64,000 nt of DNA from Anaerolineae bacterium. Its GTDB lineage: Bacteria; Chloroflexota; Anaerolineae; Aggregatilineales; Phototrophicaceae. The notes under the pieces were generated by a model, which made no database searches, had not been told where the DNA came from, and saw nothing but the letters and a program-made list of their open reading frames with translations. Positions 13,298-25,902 of this stretch are shown here, in pieces. The stretch is from positions 372,001 through 436,000 of the forward strand of contig JALHQT010000003.1 in the NCBI GenBank assembly GCA_022841825.1. The letters are read 5' to 3'. The position numbers were made by a program, and so were the translations under genes. Each line of letters opens with the position of its first letter. Position 1 is the first letter of the stretch.

Positions 13298-14272
13298 TCA
13301 CACCTCCTCCAACTCAAACCCATGCTCCGCCAGATACGCCTCCGCCTGCGCGCGGGTGAAGACGCTGGTCGTCGTCCCGACCGCCAGCGTCGCCGATGCG
13401 CCCAGGACGCTGGCGTAGCGCAGCATCTCCGGCAGCGCCCACCCACTGCCAATGCCATAGAGCAGCCCCGCGGCGAACGCATCGCCGCCACCGGACGGAT
13501 CGACCGCGTCGACCGGGAAGGGCCGGGCGCGCCAGACCTGTTCGCCCTGCGCTGCCGTCAGCCCCTTGCTCCCCTGCGTGATGACCAGCGTGCGCGCGCC
13601 CCACGCTTGGAGCGCGGCGATCTGCTCGCGGACGCCGCTGTGCCCGGTCATGCGCGCCGCCTCGTCCTCATTCGGAATGAAGTAATCGACATGCGGCAAA
13701 ATCTTGCGCAAGCCGCTGAAGTCGCTCACGCTCTGCGGAGTGATCACGTCTACGACGGTCGTCACACCCTGTTCGCGGCAGAAGCGCAGCATATCCGCGA
13801 AGGCGTCCATCTCGATCCCCGGCAGCACGTATAAGCCGCCGAGATAAAAGATGTCGAGCGTCCGCAGCCAGTCGCGATCCATATGTGCGACGGTCAGCGC
13901 CGCGTTCGCGCCGAACAAATGCAGGAAACGGCGATCCTGTCCTTTGACGAGCAGCACCACCGTCTGCGAAGTCGGTAGGGAGTCATGATAGGCAATGCGG
14001 TCGCAGCTCACACCGCCCTTTTCCAGCAGGGAGACGACGACTTCGCCCGCCCAATCCCTGCCGATGCTGCCGACGACCTCGGCATGAATGCCCTGCCGCG
14101 CCAGGCTGATGGCGACGTTCGCCGCGCAGCCGCCGACCGTGACGGGCAGCGCGTCGATGGCGAGCAGTTCGCCCTCATGCGGCAGGCGGTCGAGCGGACC
14201 GCAGAACAGGTCGGCGACGAGGATGCCCGTGCTGCCGACCGTGAAGCCGTTGTTGTGACTCGTGTCCGTCAT
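13298..14272 (-). CDS. PfkB-family sugar kinase
   Basis: Protein of 324 aa with both ribokinase-family signatures: an N-terminal GG motif in VTVGGCAANVAISLARQG and the C-terminal catalytic DAVDPSGGGDAFAAGLLYG with its catalytic Asp. ATP-binding segments include VITQGSKGLTA. It phosphorylates a sugar or sugar phosphate. Its start overlaps the aldolase stop (ATGA), so the two are coupled and the kinase probably makes or follows the aldolase substrate. Ribokinase, fructokinase and tagatose-6-phosphate kinase are all possible. Confidence 0.85.
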   Translation of the reverse strand: MTDTSHNNGFTVGSTGILVADLFCGPLDRLPHEGELLAIDALPVTVGGCAANVAISLARQGIHAEVVGSIGRDWAGEVVVSLLEKGGVSCDRIAYHDSLPTSQTVVLLVKGQDRRFLHLFGANAALTVAHMDRDWLRTLDIFYLGGLYVLPGIEMDAFADMLRFCREQGVTTVVDVITPQSVSDFSGLRKILPHVDYFIPNEDEAARMTGHSGVREQIAALQAWGARTLVITQGSKGLTAAQGEQVWRARPFPVDAVDPSGGGDAFAAGLLYGIGSGWALPEMLRYASVLGASATLAVGTTTSVFTRAQAEAYLAEHGFELEEV

Positions 14273-15153
14273 GTTTTCGCCTGCCCCATGCTGCCCAGAA
14301 TCCGCATTTTGTCCAGCACCACATCACGCACCGCCAGACGCCCGGCAACCATAATATCGGACTGCCCACCCATCCCCAACAACTCATGCGGATTTGGCTC
14401 ACGGTTGTGCAGCGCCATGTGAACTGCCAGCAGGTACGTTTGCTTCATGACCGTGCCGAAGTTGACTTTGGCGACGCCCAGGCGGATCGCTTCCCGCAGC
14501 GAGTCGTCGTCGATTCCTGTGCCGCCATGCAGGACGAGCGGCACAGGGACTGCCTCGCGCAGCTCCGCGATGCGCGTCAGGTCCAGTGAGCGTCGCCCCT
14601 CCAGTAGCACATGCACATTGCCCGCGCTGATGGCGAGCAGGTCAATGCCCGTCTGCGCGACGAATTCCGCCGCAGACTGCGGGTCGGTCACATCGCCCGG
14701 AATATCCGCGCCGAAGGGCAGTGTGCCGAGTTCGGCTTCGACGGCGACCGCGTGCTCATGGGCATAGGCGGTGATGGCGGCGGTGCGGCGGGCATAATTC
14801 GCCGGCGGCTCTCCCTCGTCGGGCACGGGCATGACGATGTTGAAGCCTGCCGTCACCGCGCGGCGCACCCATTCGTCGTGCGGGCACTCGTTGAAGATCA
14901 ATGCGCAGGGGATTGCCGCGCTCTCCGCCGCCGCACGCCCTAACGCGCCATACCACGCCAGCCGCTCCGGAGCAACGCGGTGTTCGCCGCTCATGAATTC
15001 GCCATTGAAGCCGATGATGACTGGAGACTGCGCCGCTTCCGCCGCGTCGATCACGCCGAGCAGCGACTCGAAGTTCCAGCTTTCGAAATAGCCGACCGCA
15101 TAGCCCTGTTCGAGGGCGGGGCGCGTCAGTTCGTGTACAGGGACAAGCGGCAT
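14269..15153 (-). CDS. Class II fructose/tagatose-bisphosphate aldolase-like protein
   Basis: Protein of 294 aa with the class II aldolase fold: MPLVPVHELTRPALEQGYAVGYFESWNFESLLGVIDAAE, the metal-ligand segment AVEAELGTLPFG, and the phosphate-binding end VPLVLHGGTGIDDDSLREAIRLGVAKVNFGT. It should split a ketose (bis)phosphate into two trioses or run the reverse. The start at 15153 matches the family N-terminus; an upstream Met at 15219 adds unrelated residues. It overlaps the PfkB kinase downstream and follows the epimerase gene closely. Confidence 0.83.
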   Translation of the reverse strand: MPLVPVHELTRPALEQGYAVGYFESWNFESLLGVIDAAEAAQSPVIIGFNGEFMSGEHRVAPERLAWYGALGRAAAESAAIPCALIFNECPHDEWVRRAVTAGFNIVMPVPDEGEPPANYARRTAAITAYAHEHAVAVEAELGTLPFGADIPGDVTDPQSAAEFVAQTGIDLLAISAGNVHVLLEGRRSLDLTRIAELREAVPVPLVLHGGTGIDDDSLREAIRLGVAKVNFGTVMKQTYLLAVHMALHNREPNPHELLGMGGQSDIMVAGRLAVRDVVLDKMRILGSMGQAKT

Positions 15154-15187
15154 ACCACTATTCCTTCGCTTTCTGGTTTGTTCTAGA

Positions 15188-15871
15188 TCACAAGCCGTGC
15201 AGCCAATTGAACGTCTCATTCAGGTCGCTGCTGCCAAAGATCAACGATCCAGGCACGACCGCATCGACCCCCGCAGCGCGCATCGCCGGGATGGTGTGCC
15301 GGCGATTGCCGCCGTCGTTGGCGATCTTGATGCGGTCAGTCAGCGCGCGCGCGGTCAGCATTTCGCGCATCGTCGTGATGCGTCCTAACTGGGAAGGATC
15401 GAGATCGATCCCTTTGATCCCCAGCTTCGTCCCCATCAGCGTGACGAGGATGATGTCATCCAGCCAGGGCAGGACGGCATCCAGGGGCGTTTCCAACTGT
15501 ATCGCCAACCCGGCGTGGACACCCAGGGCGCGCAGCCGTTCGAAACAGGGCGCGATATGCGCACCGTTTTCCGCGTGAAGGGTGATCAGGTTCGCGCCCG
15601 CTGCCGCGAAATCGTCGATCAGCGTCAGCGGATTTTCGACCATCAGGTGAACATGGATGGGCTTGGGCGTGAACGGGCGCAGCGCGGCGACCAGGTCGGG
15701 GAAAAAGAGCAGCCCCGGCGCGAAATGCGCATCGGTCACGTCAATATGATAGAGATCGACATAGTTTTCGACCCGCGCCATGTCCTCGCGCAGGCTGTGC
15801 AGCCGCGCTGACCAGAGCGAACCATCGACCAGCAGGCGGTGTGTCGGCAGTGTATCCCAGAAGTGACTCAT
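15188..15871 (-). CDS. rpe: Ribulose-phosphate 3-epimerase family protein
   Basis: TIM-barrel protein of 227 aa with the Rpe layout: LWSARLHSLREDM near the N-terminus, YHIDVTDAHFAPGLLFFPDLVAALR (metal His/Asp), IHVHLMVENP, TLHAEN, and IKIANDGGNRRHTIPAMRAAGVDAVVPGSLIFG. It interconverts pentulose or hexulose phosphates at C3. It is the first gene of a three-gene leftward unit with aldolase and kinase, so an allulose- or similar hexulose-phosphate epimerase is as likely as the housekeeping pentose-phosphate enzyme. Confidence 0.82.
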   Translation of the reverse strand: MSHFWDTLPTHRLLVDGSLWSARLHSLREDMARVENYVDLYHIDVTDAHFAPGLLFFPDLVAALRPFTPKPIHVHLMVENPLTLIDDFAAAGANLITLHAENGAHIAPCFERLRALGVHAGLAIQLETPLDAVLPWLDDIILVTLMGTKLGIKGIDLDPSQLGRITTMREMLTARALTDRIKIANDGGNRRHTIPAMRAAGVDAVVPGSLIFGSSDLNETFNWLHGL

Positions 15872-17974: not shown

Positions 17975-20059
17975 ATGACCCAAACCACTGATCCTTCGCC
18001 TTCCCGGCGCGCGCTCAATCGGCTGTTCTTCGTGTTGGCTGCCGCCGTCGTGCTGGTCATCTTTGCCTATGGCTGGACGGTGACGGACATCGACTTCACA
18101 GTCACCCAGCAGCCGCAGCGCCAGGAAAATGTGACCAACGCGCTGCAAGAGCTGCTTTCGCCGAACGTCTTTACGCAGGACTACACGATTCAGAACACGA
18201 CGACGTCGTTTCTCGTGACGTGCACGGACGACTTCAGCGCGCCTGCCACACAGCCGAACACGAGCGCGCCCTACATCGCGGTCGAGCCTGCCTGCGGGGA
18301 CAGCAGCGACCTGGTGACGGTACGCGGCTATAACTTCCCACCCAACGCCCTCGCACGCATCAACTGGATCGCGACGGATGGCGAGCGCCGAATTCGGCAG
18401 GTCGTCGGCGTCGAAGCGGATAATTTCGTCACCAAGCCCGATGGCACATTCAGCGTGCAGATCGAAGTCCCGCGCATTCGCGGCACGAGCGGCGAAACGC
18501 ACACGATAGAAGCGCAGGGACGTTTCCCGAACGGCGCGCCGCACTTCAGTGAAACGACCGGCGTGGTCATGGAGCGAATGATCGAGACGATCTTCCTGGC
18601 GTTGATCGCGACGACCATCTCGATTCTGCCGTCGGCGATTCTGAGCTTCCTCGCCGCGCACAACCTGATGCGTTCCGTGCGCATCCCGCTGGGCAACCTG
18701 CTGGTCGGCTTCACGCTGCTGCCCGTCGGGTATTTCTTTGGTGCGACTCTCTTGGGCGCGTTAGGCAGTTTCGTCCTTAATCTCAGCAGCGGCGGCATCG
18801 CCGCGCCCGCCGCTGGCATGATCGTGGTGTTTGGTGCCGTCGCTTCGACAAGCCGCCTGGGGAGTGCGCCGCAGATCGCGCCGCGCACCCCGCTGCGGTC
18901 CATCGCGATGACGCTGGTGGTCTCTGTGGCAGGGGTCATCGTCATCGCGTTCGTCGCGGGCTTGGCGCTGGCGATTGACCGCCTGGGCGGGGATGGTATT
19001 GTCGGCGACATCACACGCTTCATCGGCTCGTTGGGCGAGATCATCCAGCTTGTGCTGGTCCCGCTGTGCGGCATCGTCGGGGCAGTCGCGGCAGCATCGA
19101 TCGGAGGGATGCTGACGACGCCGCTCCTGCGGCAGATCAGCGTGAGCGTCAGCCACATCCTGGGCGCGGTGCTCGGCGTGCTCGGTGGCGCAATCCTGCT
19201 GGGTATGGTGGCGAGCATTGGCATGTCGGCGGCGTGGATGGGCTTACTGGTGCCGGCTGTGGTGGCATCGCTGTCGTCGCCGCTGCTGCCCCAGTTGTAC
19301 AGCCAATTCACTGGGGTAGGTCTTCACCCAACCGGGTCGCAGCGCGTGGTGCTGACCGCCTTATCATGGATTGGCGGGGCAATCGGGTTCTCAGCGACGT
19401 TCGTGCTCATGGATGTGTCGCGGGCGATGGTCGAAGGTGTGCTGCCTGGGCGCGAGGTGATCGTCTCGTTCGCCGGGGTCGAGGTCTATGCTTACGTGGC
19501 AAAGGCGATGCTGATCGGCGCGGTCGTGGCGGGGATCATGGGAGGGCTGCAAGGCACGCGCGCCAACTTCGGCATCGGCGGTGTTCTCTATTCGATCACC
19601 CGTACGCTGCTCAACGCGCTGCGCTCTATCGAGCCGCTGATCATGGGCTTGGTGTTCGTAATCTGGGTCGGCATTGGTCCGTTTGCCGGGGTGCTGGCGC
19701 TGACGCTGCACTCGATTGCGTCGCTTGGCAAGCTCTATTCGGAGCAGATCGAGACGATTGACAGCGGTCCCATCGAGGCGCTGCAAAGCACTGGCGCGAA
19801 CCGCTTGCAGACGATTGTCTACGCAGTTGTGCCGCAAATCATTCCATCGTATATTGCCTTTACGATGTATCGCTGGGACATCAACGTTCGCATGTCTACG
19901 ATCATCGGTTTCGTGGGCGGCGGTGGCATCGGCTTCCTGCTTCAGCAGCAGATCAACCTGCTGCGCTACCGGGATGCGGGCGTCGCGGTGTTGGCGATTG
20001 CCATCGTCGTCTCGATCCTGGATTACGCCAGCGCCGCTATCCGTGAGCGTTATGTCTGA
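17975..20059 (+). CDS. phnE: PhnE-type permease with N-terminal extracellular domain and large membrane insertion
   Basis: Protein of 694 aa, against about 270 for ordinary PhnE. Residues 18-37 form a membrane helix. About 38-195 lie outside, with a TIG/Ig-like stretch (TVRGYNFPPNALARINWIA). A PhnE start follows at 201-232 (IETIFLALIATTISILPSAI, LSFLAAHNLM). About 300 residues (235-540) of additional hydrophobic segments interrupt the fold. PhnE then resumes at ITRTLLNALRSIEPLIMGLV, with the EAA coupling loop GPIEALQSTGANRLQTIVYA and a C-terminus through 694. The inserted part has no family assignment that I can make. No frameshift is seen; the frame is continuous. Confidence 0.85.
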   Translation: MTQTTDPSPSRRALNRLFFVLAAAVVLVIFAYGWTVTDIDFTVTQQPQRQENVTNALQELLSPNVFTQDYTIQNTTTSFLVTCTDDFSAPATQPNTSAPYIAVEPACGDSSDLVTVRGYNFPPNALARINWIATDGERRIRQVVGVEADNFVTKPDGTFSVQIEVPRIRGTSGETHTIEAQGRFPNGAPHFSETTGVVMERMIETIFLALIATTISILPSAILSFLAAHNLMRSVRIPLGNLLVGFTLLPVGYFFGATLLGALGSFVLNLSSGGIAAPAAGMIVVFGAVASTSRLGSAPQIAPRTPLRSIAMTLVVSVAGVIVIAFVAGLALAIDRLGGDGIVGDITRFIGSLGEIIQLVLVPLCGIVGAVAAASIGGMLTTPLLRQISVSVSHILGAVLGVLGGAILLGMVASIGMSAAWMGLLVPAVVASLSSPLLPQLYSQFTGVGLHPTGSQRVVLTALSWIGGAIGFSATFVLMDVSRAMVEGVLPGREVIVSFAGVEVYAYVAKAMLIGAVVAGIMGGLQGTRANFGIGGVLYSITRTLLNALRSIEPLIMGLVFVIWVGIGPFAGVLALTLHSIASLGKLYSEQIETIDSGPIEALQSTGANRLQTIVYAVVPQIIPSYIAFTMYRWDINVRMSTIIGFVGGGGIGFLLQQQINLLRYRDAGVAVLAIAIVVSILDYASAAIRERYV

Positions 20060-20106: not shown

Positions 20107-21018
20107 TTGGAGCAAGGCGTAATCGCTGCGCCACGACGCGCGGTGGAGTGGCAGTATGTGGGCATCATGTTTCTGGGCGCTTTGGCAGGCTCCTGGGCGG
20201 GCATTCTGGGGCGGCTGGCACAAGGCGAGGGGGTGCCGACTTCCTACATCATCGCGTTTCGTCAGGTCGTCGGCGTGCTCGTGCTCACGCCCTGGGTGCT
20301 GGCACAGTATCGGGATGCGCTCCACCATTTGCGCAAACGCGATCTGGTCTTTGCGGCGATCACCGCCTTCTGGTTCGCTGCCCATCTGCTGTGGGGCTTC
20401 GGATCGCTGGAGTTCACGACGGTATTGGTCAGCACCGTACTGGGCGGCACGACACCGATCTGGATCGCGCTGGTCGAACGCTTTGCCCTCCATACAATGC
20501 TTGGCAGACAAGTCTGGTTCGGCTTGTGGGTCAGCATCGCGGGAAGCATCCTGATCGCCCTGGTGAGCGCGACCGATCTTTCGCTGGGCAGCAACCCCGT
20601 GCTGGGTGTGCTGCTGTCTTTGGGGTCGGCGCTGGCGGGTGCGGCATACAGCCTGCTGGGGCGCGACGCGCGCAATCGGATGCCGCTGGTGCCGTTCCTG
20701 TGGCTGATGTTCGTGATCGCGGCGGTCATCACGGTCGCCATTGTGGTGGTCGAGCGCGTCCCGCTGACGGGCTACAGCGCATCGGCATATGTTTACATGC
20801 TGCTGCTGGTGCTGCTGGCGCAGTTGTTTGGGCACTTCGCCTACAATTATGTGCTGCGCCGCGTCCCCGCCACCATCACGGCGGTGATGGGGCAGCTTGG
20901 CGTCGTCCTGTCGGTCGTGATCGCTTACTTCATGTTTGGCGAAGCGCCCGGAATTCTGGAGATCGTCGGCAGCGTCGTCATCGTCGCCGGCATCACGATT
21001 GTCAACCTGCGCCGCTGA
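20107..21018 (+). CDS. EamA/DMT-family transporter
   Basis: Protein of 303 aa made of about ten hydrophobic segments in two similar halves, the drug/metabolite transporter architecture. Features are the GSWAGILGRLAQG start, AFWFAAHLLWGFGSLEFTTVLVSTVLGGTTPIW, and a C-terminal half with HFAYNYVLRRVPATITAVMGQLGVVLSVVIAYFMFGEAPG. It is a probable inner-membrane exporter or importer of an unidentified metabolite. The start is TTG with GGAG nine bases upstream. It ends 17 bases inside the convergent acetyltransferase gene. Confidence 0.83.
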   Translation: MEQGVIAAPRRAVEWQYVGIMFLGALAGSWAGILGRLAQGEGVPTSYIIAFRQVVGVLVLTPWVLAQYRDALHHLRKRDLVFAAITAFWFAAHLLWGFGSLEFTTVLVSTVLGGTTPIWIALVERFALHTMLGRQVWFGLWVSIAGSILIALVSATDLSLGSNPVLGVLLSLGSALAGAAYSLLGRDARNRMPLVPFLWLMFVIAAVITVAIVVVERVPLTGYSASAYVYMLLLVLLAQLFGHFAYNYVLRRVPATITAVMGQLGVVLSVVIAYFMFGEAPGILEIVGSVVIVAGITIVNLRR

Positions 21019-21541: not shown

Positions 21542-22420
21542 CTATTCGTCGATTACCTGTCGCAGGATGCCGCCCGCATCCGCCAGCAGCGCGCGCGCCA
21601 CATCAGCCGGGACGCCGCGCCGCGCCATGACAATGGCGGTCTTGACCTCATTGTCCGCGCTTTGCAGCAGCGCCGCTGCCGCTCCTTCATCCACCGCGCT
21701 AACCTGGGCGACTATGCGCCGCGCGCGCTGGAGCAGCTTTTCGTTCTTCACCTGCACATCGACCATCAGATTGCCATAGACCTTGCCCAGCCTGATCATG
21801 GTGCCGGTGCTGATCATGTTCAGCGCGAGCTTTTGCGCCGTGCCCGCCTTCATGCGCGTGCTGCCGGTGATGACCTCCGCGCCCGTCACGAGCGGGATGG
21901 CGATGTCGGCGGCGTCGAGCAGGGCGGAGGGCGCATTGTTGGCGATGCCGATGGTGAGCGCGCCGACACCGCGCGCATACGCCAGCGCCCCCAGCACATA
22001 CGGCGTGCGCCCGCTCGCCGCGATTCCGATGACCGAGTCGTCGCCGTGCAGCTTGCGCTCGCGCAGGTCGGCTGCACCCGCTTCCGCGTCATCCTCGACC
22101 CCTTCGACAGAGTGGCGGAGGGCGTGGTCGCCGCCCGCGATGATACCCTGAACGAGGTCGGGCGGCGTGCCATAGGTCGGCGGGCATTCCGAGGCATCGA
22201 GTACACCCAGGCGTCCGCTTGTCCCCGCCCCGCTGTAGAACAGCCGTCCGCCGCGCTGCAATCGTGCCACAATCGCGTCAATCGCCTGGGCAATGGCGGG
22301 CAGCGCGCGGGCGACCGCCGCCGCCACAAGCTGATCTTCGGCGTTCATGACCTGCACCATCGCCAGCGTATCCAGGCGGTCGATCTGTGCGCTGTTGGGG
22401 TTTTGGTCTTCGGTCAGCAT
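21542..22420 (-). CDS. murQ: N-acetylmuramic acid 6-phosphate etherase
   Basis: Protein of 292 aa, close to the usual 300. It cleaves the lactyl ether of MurNAc-6-phosphate to give GlcNAc-6-phosphate and D-lactate. Diagnostic motifs: [24 protein letters not shown] (SIS sugar-phosphate site), [25 protein letters not shown] and [19 protein letters not shown]. The C-terminus carries the short helical UBA-like end. The start at 22420 is the first Met before the family N-terminus LTEDQNPNS. It is near the end of the leftward wall-recycling run; a 130-bp repeat separates it from the kinase upstream. Confidence 0.93.
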
Positions 22421-22438
22421 TGAGAATCCTTCGTTACG

Positions 22439-22570
22439 TTTAGCCCTCACCCCCAGCCCCTCTCCCGATCGCGGAGTACCGCTAGGAGAGGGGAGCCAGA
22501 AGAGTCGTCTGGAAGTCCCTCTCCCAGGCGTACTCGCCGTTCGGGAGAGGGATTTAGGGTGAGGGCTAAA
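22439..22570. repeat. Inverted-repeat-bounded element, copy A
   Basis: 132 bp with perfect 14-bp terminal inverted repeats (22439-22452 and 22557-22570) and internal hairpins. Its last 55 bases (22513-22567) match 47461-47515 with one mismatch. It carries no coding sequence and sits between murQ and the kinase gene. It is MITE-like in form, but no cognate transposase is visible. Confidence 0.8.
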
Positions 22571-22583
22571 CCGAGAGTGAGGT

Positions 22584-23483
22584 TCATGATTCCACTATCA
22601 GCTTTGCCAGCAGCGCCGCCCCGATGACCGGTTCGTAGAGCGGATAAGGGATGGACTCAAGCCCAAGCTCATCGCAGAGTGCACGGCTGAGGGCGTTCTC
22701 GGACGTGAGCAGCCCGCCGCAGAAACGGATGGCGAACTCCGCTTCCACCCGCGCCGCCGCCGCCCGCGCGATCCACGCCAGCGCCGTCGCACCACGCCTC
22801 ACGATGTCCTGCGCGGTCGCGTCGCCTTCATCCGCCGCGCGCAGTACGACCTCGGCGCGCTGGGCAACTTCGCGGATGGGCGGCGGCTGGCGATACAGCC
22901 AGGGGACGGCATCGACCGGACGCGCGAAGCCGAATGCCTGCTGGATGCGCGCTGCCAGAGGCGCGGCGGTCGGGTCACCGCCATCGCTGTGGCGGATGAG
23001 CGCGCGCAGCCCTTCCAGCGCCAGCCAGCAGCCGCTTCCCTCGTCGCCTAACAGATAGCCCCATCCGCCCGCCTGCGCCCACTCGCCATGCGCGTTGACG
23101 GCGAAGGCGACGCTGCCCGTGCCCGCCAGCACCATCACGCCGCGCCGCGCGCCGTGCGCGCCAACCAGCGCGATCTCGTTGTCCATGCTGGCGGCGACCG
23201 GGACGCCCGGCAGCGCCGCGCCGACGGTCGCCCGCAGCCACTCCTCGGCGTAAACGGCGGACGCGCCCGCCACGCCGATGCCTACGCCTTCGACAGGCTG
23301 CTCGACCGCTGACATCACGTCGCGCATGGCGCTCTGGATGCGCGCGGCGGCTTCCTCGCGCCCGATGGTGCTGGGGTTGGCGGTCTCGCGCTGCGCGTGC
23401 GCCAGGACATTGAGCGCCTCATCGACGATGGCGACGCGCAGGTTGCTGCCGCCGCCGTCGATGCCCATGTAGAGGCGACTCAT
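22584..23483 (-). CDS. BadF/BcrA-type amino-sugar kinase (MurNAc/GlcNAc kinase)
   Basis: Protein of 299 aa of the ASKHA superfamily: phosphate-1 motif [49 protein letters not shown] and [24 protein letters not shown]. These features fit N-acetylglucosamine kinase and Clostridium MurK, which phosphorylate GlcNAc and MurNAc at O6. Lying between murQ and anmK, it would supply MurNAc-6-phosphate to MurQ. The start at 23483 overlaps the end of anmK. Which sugar it prefers cannot be told from sequence. Confidence 0.83.
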
Positions 23484-24700
23484 CTCGCTGCGCTCCACGT
23501 CCGCGCGATGAGATCGCGGTAGTTCGCGCCGGGCGTGATCTGCCCCAGTACCGAGGCATGACGCGCGCCCGTCTGCTCCGGCAGGCAGCCGACGCGGTTG
23601 TGCCATGTCTCGTAGGCGAGCAGGGCGAACAGCAGCGCTTCTTTGAAATCGCCGTCGATGCCATGTTCATCGCTCGACGAGACGCGCGTCTCGCCCAGCC
23701 GCTCGCGCAGCATGGCAACCAGCGTGTGGTTGAGCCGCCCGCCGCCGCCGATGATGCATTCGGCAATCGGCGCGGGCGCGAAGTCGCGGTAGGCGTGCGC
23801 GATGCTGGCGGCGGTCAGCGCGGTCACGCTCGCCAGGATGTCCGCATCGCTCAAGCCGCGCGCGCGCCCCTCGTCCAGCAGCCGCGCTGCATAGTCCGAT
23901 CCGAACAGCTCGCGCCCGGTCGATTTCGGCGGACGTTCCGCGTAGTAAGGATGCGCCAGCAGCGCAGCGAGCCACGCAGCATCGACACGCCCCTGCGCCG
24001 CCAATTTGCCGCCCGCGTCATACGTCTGCTGCCCATCCGTCATGATCGTCATCAGCGTATCGAGCAGGGCGTTGCCGGGTCCGGTGTCGAAGGCGATCAT
24101 CTGCGCGTCAGGCTGCGCGAGCGGAGGCAGAAACGTGACGTTGCCGATGCCGCCGATGTTCTGCACAGCGCGCCATTCCGTCGGGTGGCGCAGCAAAAGC
24201 CAATCGAGATAACTCACCAGTGGCGCACCCTGCCCGCCGGAGGCGACATCGCGCGCGCGGAAGTTGTGGATCGTGGTGACCGCCGTGCGTTCGGCGATGA
24301 TGCTCCCCTCGCCAATTTGCAGCGTGGCGACCGCGCGCCCGTTCGGGTCGATCTCATGCCAGAGCGTCTGCCCATGCGACGCGATGAGATCGACGGTAGG
24401 GACGCCATTGATGGCATCCGTTTCCTCCGTGCCGGACGCCATGAATGGAGTCCCCACAGATAGCGCCGCCGCCGCGAACGCGTCGCCGACTTCGGCGTTG
24501 AGTATGCACAGCGTCCGCGCGTCGGCTCCACCGGGGCGCATGGCGGCGAGCACGCGCTCGCGCAGGTCGGGCGCGTAGGGGATGGTCTGCGCTTGGAGGA
24601 TGCGGGCGTGAAGGTGCGGCGCTGCGCCGTCGATCTCGCACAGCGCCGCGTCGATACCGTCGGCAGACGTACCGGAGATTAAGCCAATGACTCGCATCAT
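23480..24700 (-). CDS. anmK: Anhydro-N-acetylmuramic acid kinase
   Basis: Protein of 406 aa. It phosphorylates and opens 1,6-anhydroMurNAc to MurNAc-6-phosphate, the MurQ substrate. Signatures: VIGLISGTSADGIDAALCEI at the N-terminus, IASHGQTLWHE, QNIGGIGNVTFLP, AFDTGPGNALLDTLM and CIIGGGGRLNHTLVAMLRERLG. Its start overlaps the stop of the serine hydrolase gene (ATGA). Its presence implies that anhydro-muropeptides from lytic transglycosylases are recycled. Confidence 0.93.
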   Translation of the reverse strand: MMRVIGLISGTSADGIDAALCEIDGAAPHLHARILQAQTIPYAPDLRERVLAAMRPGGADARTLCILNAEVGDAFAAAALSVGTPFMASGTEETDAINGVPTVDLIASHGQTLWHEIDPNGRAVATLQIGEGSIIAERTAVTTIHNFRARDVASGGQGAPLVSYLDWLLLRHPTEWRAVQNIGGIGNVTFLPPLAQPDAQMIAFDTGPGNALLDTLMTIMTDGQQTYDAGGKLAAQGRVDAAWLAALLAHPYYAERPPKSTGRELFGSDYAARLLDEGRARGLSDADILASVTALTAASIAHAYRDFAPAPIAECIIGGGGRLNHTLVAMLRERLGETRVSSSDEHGIDGDFKEALLFALLAYETWHNRVGCLPEQTGARHASVLGQITPGANYRDLIARTWSAAR

Positions 24701-25902
24701 AAACCCTCCATCACCGCATCATGCACGGCGCGGCGGAAGTCGTGCGTGCTGTCGTACGCCGCACTGTGCCGCCCGTAGTAGACGCTGTTGGTCAGCAGGG
24801 CGATCACGACCTGTGCGTCGGGGTCGATCCAGAGCGTCGTGCCTGTGAAGCCGGAATGCCCATAGGCGCGCATACTCATCTTCTCGCCCGCCATCGAGTC
24901 GGTCGCTGCCCTGAGCGCGAAGCCCAGCCCGCGCCGCGTGCCGTCGCTTTCGACCTGGAGCGTCGTCGCCTCTTGCGCGATCTCCGGCGGGATGCCGAAC
25001 GCCGAGGGATCGCGCAGCCATTGGCTGCCCAGCGCAGCGACCGCGCGCGCCGTCCCGAACAGCCCGGCATGACCCGTCACGCCGCCCAAGCCGCAGCAGT
25101 TCTCGTCGTGGACTTCGCCCCAGGCGCGCCGTTTGCGCCAGGTTGGGTCGTCCTCCGTCGGGGCGATCTGTGCGCGCGCCCTCCCACCATCGCGGATGGG
25201 ATTGAAAAGGGCGTGATGCCCTATGTCCCCGCCAAGTCTGTTGAGGACGCGCCTGCGGATCGCCGCTTCCAGGTCGCCTCCGTCCAAGCGCGCAATCGCC
25301 TCGCCGAGCAGCATCAGCCCGATGTCGCTGTAGCGCACCACGCCATCGGGCGGCGCGACGAAGGGATAGGTGTTGATCGCCGCCAGCCCGCGCCGCCAGC
25401 GCCACGCCCGCGCTTCCGGAGTCATCGGCTGGTCGGGTGGCAGGGGTGCATCGCCCGCCGCGTTGTAGACATCGCGCCAGGGCGGCAAGCCGCTGGTATG
25501 CGTGAGCAGGTGGCGGAAGGTCACGCGCGCCGGATCGACTGTCAGCCCCTCAAGGTCGGGCGGCGTCGGCAGGCGCTGTTTGCTGTGCGGGTCCTGCCCG
25601 CCTTCGATGGGGCGCGGCGCGACCGCGCCGAACTGCGGCACGACGCTGACGAGCGGGTCGTCGATGCGCACTTTGCCCTCGCCGACCAACGACAGAAACG
25701 TCGTCGCCGTGAAGAGTTTCGTCACCGACGCCAGATCGAAAAGCGTCTCGCTGGTGACGGGCATCGTCCGTGCATCGGGGTCGATCCACCCCCACGCGCC
25801 CTCATAGACGACGATCCCGCGATGGTCAACGCAGATCGTGCAGGCGGGGAAGGTCTTGCCGAGATAGGAATTGATGATTGTGTCGAGACGGGCGGTGTTC
25901 AT
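24697..25902 (-). CDS. Class C beta-lactamase-fold serine hydrolase, AmiE-like
   Basis: Protein of 401 aa with the serine-hydrolase triad of motifs: SxxK as SVTK in LFDLASVTKLFTATTFL, a Tyr motif in VVRYSDIGLMLLGEAI, and HxG in GHSGFTGTTLWIDP. No signal peptide is evident. In Bacillus the gene in this context (amiE) is an N-acetylmuramyl-L-alanine amidase that frees peptides from MurNAc. The placement between namZ and anmK supports the same job here. Esterase activity remains possible. Confidence 0.8.
   Translation of the reverse strand: MNTARLDTIINSYLGKTFPACTICVDHRGIVVYEGAWGWIDPDARTMPVTSETLFDLASVTKLFTATTFLSLVGEGKVRIDDPLVSVVPQFGAVAPRPIEGGQDPHSKQRLPTPPDLEGLTVDPARVTFRHLLTHTSGLPPWRDVYNAAGDAPLPPDQPMTPEARAWRWRRGLAAINTYPFVAPPDGVVRYSDIGLMLLGEAIARLDGGDLEAAIRRRVLNRLGGDIGHHALFNPIRDGGRARAQIAPTEDDPTWRKRRAWGEVHDENCCGLGGVTGHAGLFGTARAVAALGSQWLRDPSAFGIPPEIAQEATTLQVESDGTRRGLGFALRAATDSMAGEKMSMRAYGHSGFTGTTLWIDPDAQVVIALLTNSVYYGRHSAAYDSTHDFRRAVHDAVMEGL

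Follow-up and report, generated by a model that had tools for sequence, protein, structure and literature searches.

Gene content of the locus

On the forward strand of the window (the whole stretch of 64,000 nucleotides of DNA that was analysed) the genes phnD, phnC and a long phnE are followed by a gene of the EamA type (positions 20107–21018). The PhnD-like product has a hydrophobic stretch at its N-terminus, without a lipobox. The long phnE encodes a PhnE-type ABC permease with a genuinely split architecture (Table 1). The genes phnC and phnD, which adjoin it in the window, also accompany it elsewhere: among 76 related loci with a clustering long PhnE, phnC was found in 64 and phnD in 61, some of the loci being cut by contig ends. 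No conserved catabolic neighbour of the long phnE was detected in these loci, the commonest family beyond phnE, phnC and phnD occurring in 13 of the 76.

Two gene groups lie on the reverse strand of the window. The first (13298–15871) is divergently oriented and comprises, as judged by eye, genes for a PfkB-type kinase and a class II aldolase and a ribulose-phosphate-3-epimerase-like gene; among the loci compared, only one similar gene each was seen near phnE in L075 and L131. The second (21542–25902), also judged by eye, encodes MurQ, a GlcNAc-type kinase, AnmK and a beta-lactamase-like hydrolase, and is possibly a muropeptide recycling cluster.

Table 1. Features of the phnD-phnC-phnE locus. 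Positions are those of the window; residues are those of the long PhnE.
Feature	Position	Strand	Basis
phnD-like substrate-binding protein, 341 aa	16106..17131	+	PF12974 (1e-38); TIGR01098 above cut-off; closest PDB entries HtxB and PtxB
phnC ATPase, 253 aa	17198..17959	+	TIGR02315, 337 bits (cut-off 266)
phnE permease with two added domains, 694 aa	17975..20059	+	Open frame; TIGR01097
TM1, residues 9–36	17999..18082	+	Predicted helix; hydropathy over 72 rows
Outside beta-sandwich (Ig-like), residues 45–192	18107..18550	+	Strands in model; fold comparison of residues 97–184
PhnE TM2, residues 193–235	18551..18679	+	TIGR01097 columns 52–94
Membrane insert, residues 237–530	18683..19564	+	Model of residues 229–538 alone; read as eight membrane helices
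PhnE core (TM3 onward), residues 531–694	19565..20056	+	TIGR01097 columns 99–251; PF00528
Presumed EAA loop, residues 601–620	19775..19834	+	Read from translation; E601, A602, G607 and P620 invariant in 72 rows

A PhnE permease split between TM2 and its core

Scanned with the NCBIfam model of PhnE (TIGR01097), the long PhnE scores 227.0 bits over two stretches, which is above the curated cut-off of 216.7, and its best single stretch reaches 212.8 bits, slightly below it. The profile breaks between columns 94 and 99: columns 52–94 and, when the C-terminal piece is scanned alone, columns 99–251 (residues 541–693) flank a gap that places neighbouring columns approximately 300–305 residues apart. 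An earlier note on this DNA had proposed that PhnE motifs are parted by about 300 mostly hydrophobic residues and that the insertion falls between the first PhnE helices and the half of the protein with the EAA loop; both proposals agree with the profile. Residues 601–620 are what we take to be the EAA loop, judging by their motif and its spacing. The EAA motif is named in PMC3150292. In the scan of the whole protein the second stretch starts earlier, with residue 511 at column 71, which indicates that both flanks of the insert are able to mimic TM2.

Residues 235–540 alone have no match in Pfam or NCBIfam. The possibility that they are a normal PhnE, which the earlier note had named as the outcome that would speak against its reading, is therefore ruled out. 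Since the same architecture recurs in many assemblies, including the one-contig genomes G027, G213 and G251, it is not an assembly error. While the split itself is thus borne out, it is no peculiarity of one gene, as it recurs in Anaerolineae and shorter relatives carry an insertion at the same place. Likewise, the N-terminal helix described in the note is present in the model, but it is probably the ordinary TM1 of PhnE and not an addition.

In G027 an 80-residue frame that corresponds to the last half of a PhnE core is found directly behind the long PhnE (L125:4408-4647). It is possibly a relic of a second permease gene.

Separable modules and size classes

Profiles for TM1, the beta-sandwich, TM2, the insert and the core were built from 72 aligned relatives. 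Across 166 copies, the gap between TM2 and the core is absent in 41, 142–168 residues long in five, 209–231 in 56 and 290–373 in 64 (36, 5, 45 and 57, respectively, when distinct sequences are counted), with no copy falling between the four classes; sampling was guided by resemblance to the long PhnE and by our selection of stretches, and the class proportions carry little meaning. Comparison of the classes by hhalign connected the 209–231 class to the 290–373 class (99.4%, E 5e-22) and to the short groups L139/L140 (99.8%) and L143/L144/L146 (95.8%). The two short groups gave 2.0% against each other, a value that lends no support to a common origin of all short forms.

Plain PhnE, consisting of TM2 and the core, measure 268–361 aa in the loci taken. 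In three proteins of 384, 390 and 401 aa (L014, L124 and L132, respectively) the sandwich is present and TM2 touches the core. An insert without a detected sandwich was found in L027/L140 (514 aa), L031/L139 (521 aa) and, as one copy, L145 (506 aa), and in L139, L140 and L145 this protein is each time the product of the second gene of a tandem pair. Proteins with both modules, among them that of the window, mostly have about 600–820 aa, those of L139 and L140 having 556 and 553 aa. By these combinations, the beta-sandwich and the insert are two separable modules, and the existence of insert-free relatives indicates that the insert is not essential to the fold.

Tandem phnE genes, both with a stretch added between TM2 and the core, occur in L139, L140, L142 and L145. 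In L142 a contig end truncates the second gene, and in the other three pairs one copy has the beta-sandwich and none was detected in the other. Fused double PhnE are also present in the phylum (L121, 853 aa; L122, 901 aa; L134, 687 aa; L135, 624 aa), representing single-chain permease pairs.

Predicted structure of the two added domains

The AlphaFold2 model of the full 694-aa chain has a mean pLDDT of 79.6, with good values for the beta-sandwich and most of the insert and poor ones for the TM2 and core blocks (pLDDT 39–86), probably since the core rows hardly differ. An extracellular beta-sandwich is predicted to occupy the loop between TM1 and TM2, in keeping with the outside domain postulated before. 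The closest PDB folds to its residues 97–184 are of the neocarzinostatin type (Z 7.7, rmsd 2.2, 82 residues), the Z being of a common level.

Residues 229–538 modelled alone gave a mean pLDDT of 90.2 and a pTM of 0.83, residues ∼269–308 being the weakest (60–77). The model contains helices at residues 239–272 (with a break), 276–293, 306–336, 342–386, 390–416, 421–446 (with a break), 454–478 and 506–526, as well as short strands at 236–238 and 531–533, which, if taken to pair, suggest that the ends of the insert meet. Read together with hydropathy, the model helices probably make up eight membrane passes, consistent with the earlier expectation of many helices added in the middle of the transporter. 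The raw hydropathy scan yielded seven segments in the 290–373 class, one of them 38 positions long, six in the 209–231 class, and five and four in the two short-insert groups. Because the 38-position segment holds two model helices, we count eight in the longest class, and because a single position splits one pair, we count four and not five in the first short group; the helix numbers are thus read as 4 and 4 in the short groups, 6 in the 209–231 class and 8 in the 290–373 class. K+R contents of successive loops in the six-segment class (0.9, 1.2, 3.8, 1.2, 3.3, 0.7 and 1.8) are as expected if the insert begins and finishes inside the cell. K+R is greater in the would-be inside loops, the only exception being a short final loop in the longest class. 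With an even helix number, the orientation of the EAA loop and the topology of the core would be unaltered.

The insert of the window protein has no sequence match in the PDB. Searches of Pfam and NCBIfam with all 76 insert rows returned scattered weak matches, none of them in the row of the window; the most widespread was to DUF1129 (14 rows, best E 3e-4). Foldseek searches with the insert model against PDB and BFVD retrieved nothing at E 0.001 or better, and the best VIA-align match (Z 7.7, rmsd 4.8, 124 residues) was to membrane bundles of pLGIC and covered residues ∼258–388 only. That these fold searches returned no significant relative does not demonstrate a new fold, as the listed matches are dominated by one sub-bundle.

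Distribution

At a threshold of E 0.001, the insert profile had matches in 39 of the 298 genomes that represent the class, three of these matches being marginal. The insert is thus present in at least about 36 of the 298 Anaerolineae genomes, in frames of 473–750 residues that have a PhnE match where both are listed. The figure of 36 (39 minus the three marginal matches) is a minimum, because the profile missed G182, G215 and G195; among the loci of the missed genomes, the gap is 142 residues long in L144 and L146, and L147 is split over two frames. No free-standing insert domain was found among the strong matches in the 298 genomes. Genomes G226, G259 and G264 account for the marginal matches (E 5e-4 to 9e-4). 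That of G264 (L192) is by eye a sensor-like multi-helix protein and not PhnE, that of G259 (L193) falls within one of two long frames that face each other on opposite strands, neither of which is PhnE, and that of G226 (L194) comes from a genome of the same genus as G264.

In a sample of 301 genomes from the phylum, all eight insert matches were in the same class. A scan of genome contigs recovered 79 loci, most of them titled Chloroflexi or Anaerolineae; the search patterns derive from one protein, and the result is no proof of absence elsewhere. Among 72,556 plasmid records, residues 235–530 had no match at E 0.1, and none of the 1,021 matches to the whole long PhnE exceeded 80% of its length. 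Literature searches on PhnE cryo-EM structures, PhnE with Ig-like domains and importers with extra helices gave nothing on this architecture among the matches listed.

Three contigs with an Anaerolineae-type PhnE are titled Bacteroidetes, Pleurocapsa and Acidimicrobiia (L047, L048 and L108, respectively). In length and core score, L048 PhnE is the same as L005 PhnE, which comes from the genus of the window, and the title of at least L048 is therefore probably wrong.

Evolutionary history

A tree was computed from 62 cores with the insert columns omitted. It places 36 insert rows in one clade (99/92), within which the eight-helix rows form a single clade (99/93); sandwich-only rows branch outside. 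The short-insert rows L143, L144 and L146 are also found outside the insert clade, beside the insert-free L136 (95/91), and the AU test does not reject a single clade comprising all 39 insert rows (p-AU 0.207). The simplest history that we infer leads from a plain PhnE to the acquisition of the sandwich, then of the insert and, in the clade of the window, of one more hairpin. Later steps would be a shortening of the insert (L139 and L140) and, in some second copies, loss of the sandwich.

PhnD partner and substrate

The genome from which the window comes contains a second set of phnC, phnE (329 aa) and phnD, with phnJ of the C-P lyase on the same strand as this second phnD and ∼3.6 kb away from it. 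The long PhnE is accordingly not the C-P lyase-linked importer of this genome, and the PhnE label does not equate with phosphonate. The second, plain phnC-phnE-phnD set is that of L138 (G000:C2:105500-113500), with phnJ at G000:C2:103257-104069. A phosphonatase gene, scoring above cut-off, lies on another contig of the same genome.

Among PDB sequences, the PhnD of the window is most similar to HtxB (E 8e-15), followed by PtxB proteins (6e-14 to 9e-11), E. coli PhnD reaching 2e-5. Phosphonate is a doubtful substrate on two counts: the C-P lyase gene is near a different, ordinary phnCED, and the closest PDB relatives of this PhnD are hypophosphite- and phosphite-binding proteins. Residues Y76, S152 and H179 align with Y55, S130 and H160 of Te_PtxB (5JVB), but are non-discriminating, each being found at the equivalent position in 9/9 plain PhnD systems as well, and hence indicate only the group of phosphorus oxyanions. 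D269 corresponds to HtxB D206 in a second, weak alignment stretch of 11.5 bits; an aspartate at this position occurs in 94 of 95 PhnD rows from sandwich or insert systems versus one of nine from other systems. A 'hybrid' class of binding proteins with PtxB and HtxB features, of which this PhnD is a candidate member, is described in PMC5700983. On our reading, the operon imports a phosphorus oxyanion or ester.

The lipobox is absent from PhnD in all 45 distinct rows of the eight-helix class, and present in 27/35 rows of the six-helix, 2/3 of the short, 8/9 of the sandwich-only and 4/8 of the plain class. The second PhnD of the window's genome likewise has none. Loss of the lipoprotein machinery is not the reason, as Lgt was matched in 290 of the 298 genomes, including this one. 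Given that the eight-helix rows form one clade, the absence may represent one event, and no coupling to the insert is demonstrated.

Conservation and possible role of the insert

In 48 long-insert rows, conservation of 85% or more is seen at 131 of the 164 core columns, as against 42 of the 294 insert columns, and 39 of these 42 are G, L, A, P, F or V, leaving R308, S375 and Y507. Compared with three relatives, dN/dS is 0.20, 0.26 and 0.48 for the insert and 0.016, 0.027 and 0.034 for the core, ratios that are rough because dS ranges from 0.75 to 2.1. Such a conservation pattern suits helix packing better than a ligand or ion site and, the conserved positions being nearly all Gly, Ala, Leu or Pro, the insert is read as a lateral structural module.

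The reading that we prefer, with a probability of roughly 0.55, is that of a phnDCE-type importer for a phosphorus oxyanion or ester in which the insert, grown after the beta-sandwich, serves as a lateral structural scaffold rather than a second pathway. As the sequence shows, the permease has an ordinary PhnE core, EAA loop included, that is interrupted at the turn between TM2 and TM3 by a separate hydrophobic domain. Two long PhnE copies would pair as in other type I importers, their EAA loops binding two PhnC, and PhnD would deliver the substrate to the permease pair. The insert might exit and re-enter at one cytoplasmic point and pack on the lipid-facing side of the core, contributing to stability, oligomer contacts or the local lipid environment. 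Having arisen later than the beta-sandwich, it would have behaved as a block gaining or losing helix hairpins in pairs while the core topology stayed constant. Its mechanism is most likely structural, a regulatory role being less probable.

A regulatory role would be played by a functional second membrane unit, i.e. a lateral gate, a channel or a sensor of lipid, ion or phosphate state that controls the importer. The confident predicted fold of the insert, its retention across many genera with mostly one origin in the tree and the purifying selection on it (dN/dS 0.20–0.48) are compatible with such a unit. We nevertheless hold it to be unlikely, if conceivable: just three of the 42 conserved insert columns are polar or aromatic-hydroxyl residues, no significant match to a channel or sensor was obtained (the Z of the pLGIC bundle is in the range of common helical arrangements), and relatives without the insert exist. 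A further-reaching version, in which a new membrane fold confined to PhnE grew in hairpin steps (∼4, 6, 8) and produced a protomer of 14 helices whose lateral domain has a regulatory or gating function, coupled to the change from a lipid-anchored to a free PhnD in the eight-helix clade, appears doubtful to us. Absence of the lipobox in the eight-helix class could mean that the extra hairpin has a specific task, but the 45 rows go with one clade.

The insert could also be what is left of two fused PhnE, the first core and the second N-terminal half having decayed. Fused doubles of 853 and 901 aa exist in the phylum (L121, L122), as does one of 687 aa (L134) with ∼275 residues separating the first TM2 from the second core. 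Fusion of two PhnE would keep six helices in this interval, the number assigned to the 209–231 class, and residues 511–540 can be read as profile columns 71–98 together with the core. Against this, hhalign of the insert classes with insert-free PhnE or the core gave probabilities below 1%, although a control limits its power, MalG-like permeases, which are distant relatives, scoring 59.9% against PhnE and 21.7% against the core. No second permease core was found in the long PhnE by phmmer or hhalign, by which a decayed copy might escape detection. No type I permease is among the best 50 matches listed for each fold search with the insert model, which is a weak argument, and the nearest insert-free rows include single genes (L131, L152, L153) as well as tandem ones (L119, L120, L133). 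A decayed second PhnE is thus unsupported by hhalign, within its limited power, and by the fold searches, and we regard this origin as improbable. Equally improbable is that the insert is ballast of nearly neutral effect, a hydrophobic segment inserted by chance or as a selfish element and tolerated by virtue of its even helix number: the insert does evolve fast relative to the core, varies in size and is shortened in some copies, but it is in frame in many genera, keeps 42 columns at ≥85% conservation with dN/dS below 1 and has a coherent predicted fold.

Comparison with known systems

Additions to the cores of type I ABC importers are usually found at the termini or in extracytoplasmic loops. 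In the long PhnE, a polytopic membrane domain is embedded within the core of a highly conserved permease, and its graded sizes appear to preserve helix parity. The architecture is a genuine and conserved extension of a known permease family, and natural relatives without each module provide a ready series for testing the insertion of domains into the core of a membrane protein.

The core of MalF of the maltose importer is not known to have an eight-helix block inside. The likeness to MalF is by analogy and concerns its P2 region, which, according to PMC3150292, is a large periplasmic region of the permease that touches the binding protein MalE. By the same analogy only, the beta-sandwich may help to hold PhnD as MalF-P2 contacts MalE.

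Closer at hand, the 329-aa PhnE near phnJ in the same genome (TIGR01097) shares with the long PhnE the core helices, the EAA loop, TM2 and the phnC and phnD neighbours, but lacks the membrane insert and has no detected beta-sandwich. The sandwich-only PhnE of Anaerolineae (L014, L124 and L132; 384–401 aa) share TM1, the beta-sandwich, TM2 and the core; the genome of L014 has the gene order phnD-phnC-phnE (L130), as in the window, whereas in these proteins TM2 leads directly into the core, with no insert. Finally, the fused double PhnE (L121, L122 and L134) are likewise single long chains of 687–901 aa, but they contain two recognisable cores, whereas the long PhnE of the window contains one.
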